A stretch of DNA of 21,295 nucleotides. Origin: a virus. The notes below the pieces were generated by a model. The model saw only the letters and a list, made by a program, of their open reading frames with translations, was not told the DNA's origin and did no database searches. The translations under genes and the position numbers were made by a program. Each line of letters begins with the position of its first letter. The stretch's first letter is position 1. Where the stretch lies: positions 1-21,295 of the IMG/VR virus record IMGVR_UViG_3300005253_000673; one strand, 5' to 3'. Positions 14,768-21,295 of the stretch are shown here, in pieces.

Positions 14768-14953
14768 TTACAAGTTCAAAAGAGACTGTCGAAGATCGTT
14801 CATTACCTCTACTTCCTCTTTGGAGAGTGTTTTCTCTGGGTCGCTGGGCGTAGGAAACTCACTCACCTTACTTAGCGCAGATCGTAAGTTGCCAGATTGT
14901 TCTTCGGTCATCTCGACTGTTATGAGTACTTGCTGGCTTTTGCGTACTATCAT
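14768..14953 (-). CDS. Small hypothetical protein downstream of the SbcC C-half
   Basis: A 61-aa acidic protein with a short strand-rich start (SQQVLITVEMTEEQSGNLRS) and a helical C-terminus (SKEEVEVMNDLRQSLLNL). Its ATG overlaps the stop of the ATPase gene as ATGA, so it is probably translated by coupling. It is the last gene of the - strand block before the convergent gap. No family recognised; a partner of the upstream ATPase is possible by position only. Confidence 0.65.
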   Translation of the reverse strand: MIVRKSQQVLITVEMTEEQSGNLRSALSKVSEFPTPSDPEKTLSKEEVEVMNDLRQSLLNL

Positions 14954-15570
14954 GTTTTAGTGCCCTCCTCGAACACCTTGCTGATTCCCTTCGTTTGTCG
15001 CACAGAGAAGATCTTGTCCCCGCACGATATCAATTCTTCTTCGTGAGTGACAATGATCATTTGAATGTTCAAGCGGGACGATATTTCGTGTAGCATACCT
15101 CCTGCCTTCTCCTGGAGGTCTGTACTGAGGTAACGAAATGGCTCGTCCAGTATTAGCACCGGCTGTGATTTTGGATGGCGCATTGACCATGCTGCGATCC
15201 GAAGGGCGAACCCAGCCACGTCGATTGCCCCGCCGCCAGATGCACTGATCGGGTCTATCACGACATCGTCCCGTTCGAATCCCAAGTCACATTCCGTTTT
15301 TCCGCGTCGTTCCACAAACTTCACGGATAGACTGTAGGGGTCCGGGAAAACGGCTTGCAGGGCTGAAGTGACTATGTCTGAGAAGTGATACTCCAACTGT
15401 TGTTGGGTAGCAAGGCCTACTGTCTTGACGACCTCTCGGGCCTGCATATGTTTTATGAGATCGCGGTTGGTGTGCTTCAAGAAGCGCTTACACTCTCTGA
15501 GATCGAGCTTGATCTGCACAAGACGCCCCTTGCGCTGCTCCAATTCGGTTCGTAGTGACGCTATAGTCAT
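14950..15570 (-). CDS. SbcC/Rad50-like ATPase, carboxy-terminal half as a separate protein
   Basis: The 206-aa protein has a short coiled coil (residues 5-50, SLRTELEQRKGRLVQIKLDL), then the C-lobe of an ABC-type SbcC/Rad50 ATPase. This includes an ABC signature SGGGAID (111-117), Walker B PVLILDEP (137-144), a D-loop-like FRYLS, and the H-loop VTHEEE (174-179). There is no Walker A, so it needs an N-lobe in trans; the gene at 20462 onward can supply it. I chose ATG 15570 because GGGGGAG lies just upstream and the ATG overlaps the preceding stop (TGATG). It probably acts with the SbcD-like nuclease in processing DNA ends during replication or recombination. Full SbcC/Rad50 is usually 600-1300 aa in one chain. 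Confidence 0.88.
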   Translation of the reverse strand: MTIASLRTELEQRKGRLVQIKLDLRECKRFLKHTNRDLIKHMQAREVVKTVGLATQQQLEYHFSDIVTSALQAVFPDPYSLSVKFVERRGKTECDLGFERDDVVIDPISASGGGAIDVAGFALRIAAWSMRHPKSQPVLILDEPFRYLSTDLQEKAGGMLHEISSRLNIQMIIVTHEEELISCGDKIFSVRQTKGISKVFEEGTKT

Positions 15571-15857
15571 CAGAGCTCCCCCAGCAGTATGTTGCGGTAC
15601 GTAGATGGATGTCCACACCAGTTGCAATAGCTGATTTCTGTTTCGGAGATTCTCCTGACCGTGTTGGTTTTGTCACAATTGGGGCATAGCCATATTGCGA
15701 CTCGAAGGCGTTCAATGCGAATCGCATCATAGAATCCTCGTGCAATTGCTTGATAGCCGCGAATGAATCGAGCCATGTTTTCCGCGTTGTACGTTCCAGT
15801 TGGAGGATCATTGCGACGGAGGTAAGGGAGAGGGGGATGCGTGCGTCGTAGTATCAT
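15570..15857 (-). CDS. Zinc-ribbon protein
   Basis: A 95-aa basic protein whose C-terminal half carries CPNC (about residues 58-61) and CNWCG, a classic four-Cys zinc ribbon. A helical region comes before it (NAENMARFIRGYQAIARGFYD). The ATG at 15857 overlaps the stop of the upstream 59-aa gene (ATGA), and its own stop overlaps the ATPase start, so it is tightly coupled to the SbcC C-half. Ribbons of this type often bind nucleic acid or partner proteins; no specific role can be assigned. Confidence 0.72.
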   Translation of the reverse strand: MILRRTHPPLPYLRRNDPPTGTYNAENMARFIRGYQAIARGFYDAIRIERLRVAIWLCPNCDKTNTVRRISETEISYCNWCGHPSTYRNILLGEL

Positions 15858-16033
15858 GTGATTCGGTCCCATATTCGTTCTAGCATCTCTTGCTGTTTCT
15901 GCGTCAGACTACCCTCTCCTCGGAGTTGGGAGTCGATGCTGTCAATGAACTCTGCCTCCCATTCACTGAGTTTGGACTCCCGCTGAAGACAGTCCTCAAT
16001 CATGATTGGAATGTCGTCGTCCAGTTTACCCAT
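15854..16033 (-). CDS. Small phage protein (59 aa) with an LTxKQxxxLExIWDR-type helix
   Basis: The 59-residue product is acidic and helical: SEWEAEFIDSIDSQLRGEG, then SLTQKQQEMLERIWDRIT. I have seen this C-terminal pattern as a common short phage protein or domain of unknown function. The ATG at 16033 has a perfect AAGGAG with 7-nt spacing, and the stop overlaps the next start as ATGA. That combination makes this a confident gene despite its size. Confidence 0.8.
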   Translation of the reverse strand: MGKLDDDIPIMIEDCLQRESKLSEWEAEFIDSIDSQLRGEGSLTQKQQEMLERIWDRIT

Positions 16034-16313: not shown

Positions 16314-16469
16314 TTACTTAAACAATCCTCGAAGCCGATCCGAGAATCTTTGCCACCACGGATAGGCATACGACATCAGATCGGCCTTGCAACTAGTACA
16401 TTCCCATCCAGTGTCTAGGTCCCCTGAACAGTATGGGCAGTAGTCCCATGATTTATACTGTTTGTTCAT
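16314..16469 (-). CDS. Mini zinc-ribbon protein (51 aa)
   Basis: A 51-residue product with CPYC (11-14) and CTSC (24-27), spaced as a compact zinc ribbon, then an aromatic/basic tail (YAYPWWQRFSDRLRGLF). The ATG at 16469 overlaps the end of the preceding gene by 17 nt and has AAGGA upstream. The tail may be amphipathic and could touch membrane or protein. Likely a nucleic-acid- or partner-binding accessory; no family name. Confidence 0.75.
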   Translation of the reverse strand: MNKQYKSWDYCPYCSGDLDTGWECTSCKADLMSYAYPWWQRFSDRLRGLFK

Positions 16470-16740
16470 TCTTCTTTTCCTTTGCTAGCTCGTCTTGGTA
16501 TGCCCTTAGCACTCGGCCCACCCTCGCTGCCCACTTCGGCGGGAGATACGAACCGATGAGCTGTACCTTATCCCCATGCACGCCTCGGAGTAGGAGAAAG
16601 TCACATTCTTTCAATTGGCAGAATACTGCTCCCTTCTTCCTGTCTGGGTTAACATGTTGTTTGTTTACCGCATCAAATGCCCCGAGGGCTGCTTTTGCCA
16701 CTCGTCCGTTTCTGAATTTGATGTCGAAGTCAGGTGTCAT
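16453..16740 (-). CDS. Paralog B of a tandem pair (GAVFCQLKE / YLPPKWAAR family)
   Basis: The 95-aa protein shares with its upstream neighbour (16747-17013) the patterns F-x-x-K-F, A-F-x-A-V-x-K-Q, G-A-(V/I)-F-C-Q-L-K-E, and Y-L-P-P-K-W-A-x-R followed by a helix. Relative to the neighbour it has a six-residue insertion before the last strand and ends in a basic tail (KEKKNEQTV) rather than the acidic DDIPF tip. Start ATG 16740 lies 6 nt after the upstream stop, with no strong Shine-Dalgarno, so coupling is likely. I do not recognise a named family. Confidence 0.78.
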   Translation of the reverse strand: MTPDFDIKFRNGRVAKAALGAFDAVNKQHVNPDRKKGAVFCQLKECDFLLLRGVHGDKVQLIGSYLPPKWAARVGRVLRAYQDELAKEKKNEQTV

Positions 16741-16746
16741 GATATA

Positions 16747-17013
16747 TCAGAATGGTATGTCATCCTCCTCGGGCTCGTATCCCTCTTGCAGTTCCTTTTT
16801 ATACTCCTGAAGGACCTCGTTGATTCTATCTGCCCATTTGGGCGGTAGATAGACCCCAGTCAGAAGAAATCTAGAACCATCCTCTTTCAACTGACAGAAG
16901 ATTGCCCCGCGCTCGTTACCCCCTTTACAGACCTGTTTCGCTACCGCGTTGAAAGCGTCTCGCGAGGCTCTCACAACTTGCTTGCTTCCGAATTTGGCCT
17001 TGAAACTGTGCAT
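16747..17013 (-). CDS. Paralog A, ending in an SSB-type acidic tip (EEDDIPF)
   Basis: The 88-aa protein has a compact alpha/beta core: FKAKFGSKQVVRASRDAFNA, then GAIFCQLKEDG and VYLPPKWADRINEVLQEYKK. It ends EPEEDDIPF. Bacterial single-stranded DNA-binding proteins end in DDDIPF, which recruits ExoI, RecO, RecQ, PriA and other partners. The core is not a recognisable OB fold and is shorter than usual SSB (about 170 aa). It may be a divergent phage SSB or a factor that uses the SSB tip to recruit or sequester host repair proteins. It starts at an ATG overlapping the preceding stop (TGATG), in the SbcC/SbcD operon. Confidence 0.72.
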   Translation of the reverse strand: MHSFKAKFGSKQVVRASRDAFNAVAKQVCKGGNERGAIFCQLKEDGSRFLLTGVYLPPKWADRINEVLQEYKKELQEGYEPEEDDIPF

Positions 17014-17252
17014 CAGATCGCGTCGTACTGTTCCTCGACTTTGAGTATGGCAGTATTGAGTTCCTCCTCCTTCTCCTCGATTAGATTGTCGAGCTTCTTC
17101 AATGCCTTCTCCGCTTCTTTGACGGAGGAGTAGCCTAGCTTCTTCAGGCTTTCTATCAAGGAGGTCATCTGACCTTCCAACCGTGCTGCGTCACGATCTG
17201 CATCTTCAATGCGTTCCTTCAGATCGAGGAGGCCCTTCTCGTTCATAGACAT
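17013..17252 (-). CDS. Small coiled-coil protein
   Basis: The 79-aa product is nearly all charged helix: LKERIEDADRDAARLEGQM, a break at KKLGYSSVKEAEKAL, then LDNLIEEKEEELNTAILKV. It looks like two helices separated by a short turn. The ATG at 17252 has AGGAG upstream, and the stop overlaps the next ATG. Small coiled coils like this could pair with the long helical arm of the SbcC N-half, because the C-half has too short a coil of its own; that is inference. No known family named. Confidence 0.75.
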   Translation of the reverse strand: MSMNEKGLLDLKERIEDADRDAARLEGQMTSLIESLKKLGYSSVKEAEKALKKLDNLIEEKEEELNTAILKVEEQYDAI

Positions 17253-19382: not shown

Positions 19383-20279
19383 CTATAAATCTAAATCTAC
19401 CGCCTTTTGTATCAGCTCTTCTGTCCGAGCATCTACGCGGTTACTTGACAAGTACTTTTTCAGATTGCCTTCGAAACTCAGTTCGGTGGACCAGTCCACG
19501 TCGAGTCTGCTTATGAACGCTTCAATGCGCTCATTCCGTTCCTTCATCACGTCGAGATGCTCTCTGGATACGGCGTCCGGGTTGATCGGAAGAAAGGCTG
19601 GGACGACATCATTATCCTCAGCCGACCATAAATAGATTCGAGGTTGGAAGTCGATCTGATCTGCAGACTGTCGCATCAGACTACCGGGATTGACTAGTAG
19701 GCGATCCCCGTCTCGGTCGATACAAGGGATATGGAAGTCCCCTGTCACGATGAGATCGAACATGTCGTACTTTTCTAATACCTCCTCGGTGGTCGGGTTA
19801 GTGCACCCAGGCCATGGGGACTTCCCCTGCCATACTCCCTCGTGCCATACGAGTGTTTGGTATCCGCATAGGTCGAAGCCATCGTCGTACGTCGGTTCTT
19901 GCCCGGCATGGGCTCCCGAAAGAACGATCAGCTCACCGGCCATTTCGAGCGTATGGACCCCGCTGCGTTCCATTAGTTCAATGCTGTGTTGCGGCAGGTC
20001 GTGATTGCCATATACAGTATGGAAGTTCTTGGGGAGATGCTTGAGAGTAGTACTTAGTAAGTATGGGCTAGCTTTCCAATGATGAAACAAATCTCCCGAG
20101 TGGAAGACGGGGCAGTCGTATTGTTGCTGTAGGGTTGCTACGAAGTCGACCTTCACCCATTGTGCCTCCCAAAAGTCATCTGTACGGCAGACGGGTATGG
20201 AATCACGCAAATGAAAGTCAGCACATAAGATAGCCTGCACTGCCCCTTCGGAAGGTAATTTACTTGTACGTCTCATCAT
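19383..20279 (-). CDS. SbcD/Mre11-like DNA nuclease (metallophosphoesterase)
   Basis: The 298-aa protein carries the calcineurin-type phosphoesterase motifs of Mre11/SbcD in order: ADFHL (residues 20-24), SGDLFHH (61-67), YGNHD (90-94), WHEG (144-147) and TGDFH (178-182). The usual GHxH is here GDFH. The C-terminal helical part (about 225-298) is shorter than the capping domain of E. coli SbcD (400 aa total) and may bind the SbcC-like half. It lies 6 nt after a small gene that is coupled to the SbcC N-half, so the three are probably translated together. The ATG pair at 20279/20276 follows a weak GGA; the TTG at 20282 is unlikely. Confidence 0.9.
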   Translation of the reverse strand: MMRRTSKLPSEGAVQAILCADFHLRDSIPVCRTDDFWEAQWVKVDFVATLQQQYDCPVFHSGDLFHHWKASPYLLSTTLKHLPKNFHTVYGNHDLPQHSIELMERSGVHTLEMAGELIVLSGAHAGQEPTYDDGFDLCGYQTLVWHEGVWQGKSPWPGCTNPTTEEVLEKYDMFDLIVTGDFHIPCIDRDGDRLLVNPGSLMRQSADQIDFQPRIYLWSAEDNDVVPAFLPINPDAVSREHLDVMKERNERIEAFISRLDVDWSTELSFEGNLKKYLSSNRVDARTEELIQKAVDLDL

Positions 20280-20285
20280 CAAGTC

Positions 20286-20465
20286 TCAATTCCGCTTGTT
20301 GAACTTCACCTTTCCTTGTTCGATCTCGTCTGCTGTCTGGCGAAGGAAGGATACAATCGCATCATTCATGATCGGATCCCCTTTCACATAGAACATAGGG
20401 ACAGTCGATATCTTGCCTGTGGCGTCCTGCTCCACTTCCATCACGAGTGTGAGAGTCGATTTCAT
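20286..20465 (-). CDS. Small hypothetical protein between the SbcC N-half and SbcD
   Basis: A 59-aa product with a strand-rich start (STLTLVMEVEQDATGKIS) and a helical end (DAIVSFLRQTADEIEQGK). ATG 20465 overlaps the stop of the SbcC N-half as ATGA, so it is translationally coupled to that gene and precedes the nuclease by 6 nt. Its position inside the SbcC-SbcD gene pair suggests a partner of the complex. Unrecognised family. Confidence 0.65.
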   Translation of the reverse strand: MKSTLTLVMEVEQDATGKISTVPMFYVKGDPIMNDAIVSFLRQTADEIEQGKVKFNKRN

Positions 20466-21295
20466 TTCCCTATCACGCTTCCGCATAGTATGCATTGATC
20501 ACCCATAGCCTCGTCGAACTGCTCATGCAACGTGTCGCGTTCCTCCTTTGCTTCTTCGATGCGACGCCCCATACGTCGATACTGCTCGATGAGTTGTGCC
20601 AGACGATGGACCTCTGTTTGGGTGTTTGACAACTTGCCTTGCAATTGTATAGCATGATCTACTGTCGGGGCTAGCTCTTGTAAGGGCTTGAGTTTTTTCT
20701 GTTGGTTTTGAACGTTCCCAATTCGATCTGTCAAGTCGAATAATGAACTGGCTTCTTTGACGAGACCTCTCTTGACCTTTCGATGCTCGAGGGCTACGTC
20801 AACCAGCGGGTCGAGATCCAGCAAAGGACGTATAGTATCCAGCTTAGTGTTGACGCGCAGGGCCTGATCGATTGTTTCGCCCAGTTTCCTGTGCTTGTCC
20901 TGTTTCTCGCGTAGGGTTCCCTCCTGCTCCTCCAACCTCTCGATTGTCTTCTCCATGTTTGGCAGGTAATCGAAGGATGATTGAGCTTCCCCCAATCGCT
21001 CTTGATTTGAGGTATGTGTTCGGATGTCAGATTCGATCCCGCGGATCCATTTGGCCAGTCTTTGTAGGGCCCGGTCAATCACGTCCAGATGAGCCACTTC
21101 GTTCAGATAGTGTGCAACCTGCCCAGGCGGGGTGTCCAGCAGGAAGGGCCGATCCAACTGCTGTTGTAGATTCACTGAATCGAGGTTCAAGAGTTTCACA
21201 ACGTCGGACGGTACTTCGGACCCGAATGCTTCATATACGTGATCGTCAATGTAGTACGCGTTATGGTTTTTCGCACGTACACGACGGACCAGGGT
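20462..21295 (-). CDS. SbcC/Rad50-like protein, amino-terminal half ending at the zinc hook (partial)
   Basis: The frame is open to the window edge, about 277 aa seen; Walker A would lie beyond it. The visible start (RRVRAKNHNAYYIDD, then NLQQQLDRPFLLDTPPGQVA) matches the N-lobe of phage Rad50/SbcC-like ATPases. A GTG at 21197-21199 is internal, not the start. About 190 helical residues follow with loosely repeated units containing L-x-P-x-V-D/M-E-x-A/T-I. The protein ends DQCILCGSVIGK, a CxxC zinc hook (codons at 20483-20494), directly before its stop. Rad50 normally continues from the hook back into a second coil and C-lobe; here those are in another gene (14950-15570). Confidence 0.85.
   Translation of the reverse strand, partial: TLVRRVRAKNHNAYYIDDHVYEAFGSEVPSDVVKLLNLDSVNLQQQLDRPFLLDTPPGQVAHYLNEVAHLDVIDRALQRLAKWIRGIESDIRTHTSNQERLGEAQSSFDYLPNMEKTIERLEEQEGTLREKQDKHRKLGETIDQALRVNTKLDTIRPLLDLDPLVDVALEHRKVKRGLVKEASSLFDLTDRIGNVQNQQKKLKPLQELAPTVDHAIQLQGKLSNTQTEVHRLAQLIEQYRRMGRRIEEAKEERDTLHEQFDEAMGDQCILCGSVIGK

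Follow-up and report, generated by a model that had tools for sequence, protein, structure and literature searches.

Bacteria steer enzymes of repair and replication restart to single-stranded DNA chiefly through one hub, the SSB tip. Bacterial SSB consists of an OB fold, a linker and the tip DDDIPF, and the tail of E. coli SSB reads PMDFDDDIPF (PMC4118853). Recognition of the final SSB residues by host enzymes is established (PMC10164576; PMC7913777). In phage HK620 a tip of the same type (NDYPPF) recruits the phage recombinase, and deletion of the last six residues of the phage SSB abolished the binding of Sak4 to SSB-coated ssDNA (PMC5928155). Here, we report this docking peptide, already known, on small phage proteins of a new family with a narrow distribution, first seen in a stretch of 21,295 nucleotides (the window) from the IMG/VR virus record IMGVR_UViG_3300005253_000673. 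The protein, P0001, resembles bacterial SSB in its final DDIPF, which follows a stretch that is acidic and probably flexible. It differs from bacterial SSB in being only 88 aa long, in having no detectable OB domain and a core predicted as alpha-beta-beta-alpha, and in being encoded next to a tipless paralog. Whereas the HK620 tip belongs to a bona fide SSB, that of P0001 is carried by an unrelated small protein; in the open-licence literature, no account was found of a non-OB phage protein with an SSB tip.

The features of the locus, by position in the window, are these:
14950..15570, minus strand: C-terminal ATPase half of Rad50/SbcC (phrog_15167, E=3.7e-22; SMC_N, E=2e-5)
16453..16740, minus strand: P0002, tandem paralog of P0001, 95 aa, tipless and with a longer hairpin (40% identity to P0001, pairwise E=2e-20)
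16747..17013, minus strand: P0001, the tip-bearing protein of 88 aa, a real ORF with an ATG start, stop codon included
16750..16770, minus strand: SSB-type tip EEDDIPF, P0001 residues 82-88, identical in the ortholog at L003:6001-6255
16789..17013, minus strand: P0001 core, residues 1-75, with helix 11-25, beta-hairpin 37-45/48-56 and helix 58-78 predicted from low-confidence models
17013..17252, minus strand: coiled-coil ORF of 79 aa, probable middle piece of a split Rad50, directly upstream of P0001 and overlapping it by one base
19383..20279, minus strand: Mre11/SbcD-like metallophosphoesterase (Metallophos_2, E=1e-9; 80% identical in L003)
20462..21295, minus strand: N-terminal half of Rad50/SbcC, cut at the record end and finishing just past the CILCG zinc-hook half

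The initial annotation, which named no strand, had described the last seven residues of P0001 as a near-copy of the SSB tip, and this is confirmed. Read on the minus strand from 17013 to 16747, the gene encodes MHSFKAKFGSKQVVRASRDAFNAVAKQVCKGGNERGAIFCQLKEDGSRFLLTGVYLPPKWADRINEVLQEYKKELQEGYEPEEDDIPF, a protein of 88 aa whose C-terminus is EEDDIPF directly before the stop codon. Residues 84-88 (DDIPF) are identical to the final five of E. coli SSB, and the two residues preceding them are EE in P0001 versus FD in E. coli. The acidic tip ending in DDIPF, a feature of the bacterial SSB family, is present in both P0001 and the one ortholog found, which lies on IMG/VR contig 3300005253_002026 (L003/L005, hereafter the sister phage). 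This ortholog has 84 aa, is 69% identical to P0001 and likewise ends with EEDDIPF. It occupies the same site, with the coiled-coil ORF on one side, the Rad50 C-half on the other and a tipless paralog next to it. Gene-wide, synonymous change between the two is saturated (dS about 1.8) and dN is about 0.21. The only changes in the last seven codons are two synonymous ones, and an indel of 4 aa in the linker lies directly before them. This single ortholog pair provides modest evidence that the tip has been conserved by selection. The tip codons also read GAGGAG, which was considered as a ribosome site for the downstream paralog; the idea was rejected because the paralog ATG is about 23 nt away in each phage and IPF would be left unexplained.

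The presence of a tandem paralog without the tip in both phages is a new observation, absent from the initial annotation. P0002 begins six bases past the P0001 stop, and its ortholog in L003, P0007, also ends without the tip. The motifs GA[IV]FCQLK and YLPPKW are invariant across the four family members, while the tails of P0002 and P0007 have diverged completely. Since the adjacent paralog is tipless in both phages, the tip is an add-on to one copy, and the presence of the tipped and tipless pair in both indicates a duplication older than the split between the phages. The expectation that homologs would keep DDIPF was thus borne out for the ortholog and not for the paralogs. The family is small: single-sequence and profile searches of IMG/VR, GTDB genomes, INPHARED and PLSDB retrieved no further relatives of P0001, of 26 clade records scanned in full with a profile, only L005 carried the family, and of two extra relatives of the module obtained by a Rad50-C-anchored viral search (L148 and L149) neither encoded a member. 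No host or prophage was found by a search of GTDB genomes anchored on Mre11.

The initial annotation also placed the gene in an operon with Rad50- and Mre11-like genes, and the locus agrees with this. The minus-strand order is Rad50 N-half, Mre11-like gene, small genes, coiled-coil ORF, P0001, P0002, small genes and Rad50 C-half. The ATG of P0001 overlaps the stop of the coiled-coil ORF, itself part of the Rad50 module, by one base (TGATG), so that the two are probably translationally coupled. Over the region they share, the N-half and L003 P0010, which bears the AAA_23 P-loop domain, are 88% identical. As an observation in its own right, Rad50/SbcC is here encoded in pieces, namely an N-half that ends just past a CPxC-type zinc-hook motif, a separate coil ORF (about 80 aa) and a C-half (about 205 aa) bearing the ATPase signature; Mre11 lies between the pieces. 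Across L005-L034 the N-half ends in the same way wherever the region is present and three pieces are found in nearly all; no description of such a split arrangement was found in the literature.

Upstream of this region the sister phage encodes a gp32-like SSB, UvsX/RecA, a PDDEXK nuclease and a complete Rad50 N-half. Its gp32-like SSB (L005:1233-2474, 413 aa) is tipless, ending with CIDAKEARGSK, and the corresponding SSB of the window phage lies beyond the record. As the sister phage has a gp32-like SSB of its own, P0001 is probably not the main SSB of the phage. An uncharacterised sister-phage protein (L005:4503-5486, 327 aa), encoded between the PDDEXK nuclease and Rad50-N, ends with PDDELGF, possibly a degenerate acidic tip. 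For a comparison across the clade, 30 IMG/VR loci with a related Mre11 were collected. The gp32-like SSBs of the clade share the recombination module with P0001 and, in L012 (5456-6559, ending CIDAQDDIPF), even the tip (AQDDIPF), which is absent from nearly all others. They differ from P0001 in being unrelated in sequence, encoded by a separate gene and about 330-490 aa long; their linker is long and acidic, and their end usually Cys-rich. A D[IV]PF end occurred in three of 26 clade records, once each on a P0001-family protein, a gp32-like SSB and a clamp-loader-like protein; the other 23, many of them fragments, were without it, which suggests that the tip is dispensable for the module.

From these observations, the probable role of P0001 is to summon host repair enzymes or to draw them away. 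We give about an even chance to the reading that it is an adaptor whose SSB tip, shown in trans, gives host SSB-binding enzymes a docking site on phage recombination intermediates. P0001 would then be a small accessory of the phage recombination module, alongside split Rad50, Mre11, UvsX and the gp32-like SSB. Its core, perhaps together with the tipless paralog, would anchor it on DNA intermediates of the phage or on the machinery of Mre11-Rad50 and gp32, and its flexible C-terminus would present the tip in trans. Candidate host partners, namely RecO, RecQ, PriA, ExoI, RecJ and chi, might dock at sites from which host SSB had been displaced by the tipless SSB of the phage, recruitment being the presumed purpose. 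The HK620 SSB and Sak4 offer a precedent for recruitment through a tip; the single known ortholog and the many clade records with no D[IV]PF end count against the reading. A more elaborate version is offered tentatively and is, in our estimate, on the unlikely side: the tip may have shifted from the phage SSB to a dedicated adaptor with a tipless paralog, an arrangement that would bring host enzymes of repair and restart, in trans, to DNA bound by split Rad50, Mre11 and gp32. The adaptor reading was not considered in the initial annotation, which proposed a new ssDNA-binding fold or a mimic, and it fits at least as well as either.

The mimic, in the form of a decoy or inhibitor, would be a free SSB tip that fills the SSB-binding pockets of host enzymes (ExoI, RecJ, RecQ, RecO) and keeps them away from DNA coated with host SSB or stops them from attacking the phage DNA. 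A small, separate protein with a terminal tip is suited to such a role, and it is precisely the tip that the host partners recognise (PMC10164576; PMC7913777). A pI of 9.6 makes the core of P0001 basic, but that of the ortholog, at pI 6.3, is not. This makes a conserved DNA-binding surface less likely and is in keeping with a decoy that has no clear surface of this kind. However, P0001 is located in the phage's own recombination operon, overlapping an ORF of the Rad50 module, and a simple decoy would have no need of the conserved tipless partner. A monovalent tip would presumably also require a high copy number. Operon position and conserved paralog together favour a role in the phage's own recombination over pure sabotage, and we regard the decoy as unlikely.

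The core matched no family in Pfam, PHROG or PDB sequences. AlphaFold2 models built with the four family sequences were of low confidence (mean pLDDT 58.7 for P0001 and 50.6 for P0002), and both of these weak models had the same order of helix, beta-hairpin, helix and C-terminal tail, with two strands only. The P0001 core is accordingly described, at low confidence, as a predicted helix-hairpin-helix and not an OB fold. The view that it is not a recognisable OB fold was hence upheld as far as testable. With no SSB match in Pfam or PHROG and only two strands in low-confidence models, the OB fold of the bacterial SSB family was not detected, and P0001 is therefore not classed in that family; it may still act like the interacting half of an SSB. 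For an SSB of the T7 gp2.5 type, which has an OB fold and an acidic tail ending in an aromatic residue, Pfam and PHROG gave no sequence match to any SSB family, and in PDB and BFVD the weak models retrieved no fold match at E<0.1.

A further explanation is that the paralog pair forms a (hetero)dimeric ssDNA binder, perhaps PC4/whirly-like, that has converged on the SSB tip. The fold search gave non-significant matches to the ssDNA-binding proteins MoSub1 (PC4), Pur-alpha and ThermoDBP-RP1 (E about 0.9-1.7), which serve as a lead only and were excluded as evidence of membership in these families; the best PC4-type match had E=0.85. PC4/whirly-like proteins have a four-strand sheet and a C-terminal helix, and the order predicted here, at mean pLDDT 59 and 51, is alpha-beta-beta-alpha. 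P0001 is small, with strands followed by a helix, as are PC4-type proteins (Sub1/PC4, ThermoDBP-type), but its predicted topology differs from theirs, the models having two strands instead of four or five. The basic core of P0001 would suit an ssDNA binder, as would a weak PC4 match (E=0.018, below the cut-off) of L101, a small phage protein that also ends with EEDDIPF. Against this stand the pI of 6.3 of the ortholog core and the gp32-like SSB already present in the sister phage. We consider a new ssDNA-binding fold rather doubtful.

The distribution of the tip beyond this clade was surveyed in IMG/VR. A search with back-translated EEDDIPF plus stop gave at least 100 stretches, and the permuted control EEDDPIF plus stop gave none. 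Translation of 80 retrieved stretches revealed 19 proteins in an SSB cluster, 20 in a cluster of small proteins of GALF/GGLW type and five helicases, besides a DnaQ/Rv2179c-like exonuclease (L087), a gp32-family SSB (L077) and small singletons. Being found on SSBs, helicases, an exonuclease and others, EEDDIPF behaves as a portable C-terminal docking peptide. In L087 (655-1257 and 2183-3130) the gp32-family SSB is tipless and EEDDIPF is carried separately by the exonuclease. The small phage proteins L035 (91 aa) and L101 (111 aa) end with EEDDIPF and belong to no clear family; relatives of the two were not found in INPHARED. In the window itself, a 59-aa protein (15854-16033, minus strand) starts with MGKLDDDIP, and this internal DDDIP, where L003 has DDIST, is probably a coincidence. 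It is highly improbable that P0001 is an unrelated small protein whose C-terminal tip arose by chance or neutrally. In favour of this view, only two tipped sequences of the family are known, the paralogs are tipless and, at the overall identity of the pair, luck could preserve seven residues in several per cent of cases. The empty permuted control and a tip with synonymous changes only, beside an indel, argue otherwise.

If the proposed role is true, a tip without an OB domain would mean that the SSB hub is separable from DNA coating and usable as a portable signal for recruitment or sabotage. The binding of the tip should be easily testable with existing peptide-binding assays. The survey suggests that such tips occur on many phage proteins, which may provide a simple handle on the phage factors that plug into host repair.
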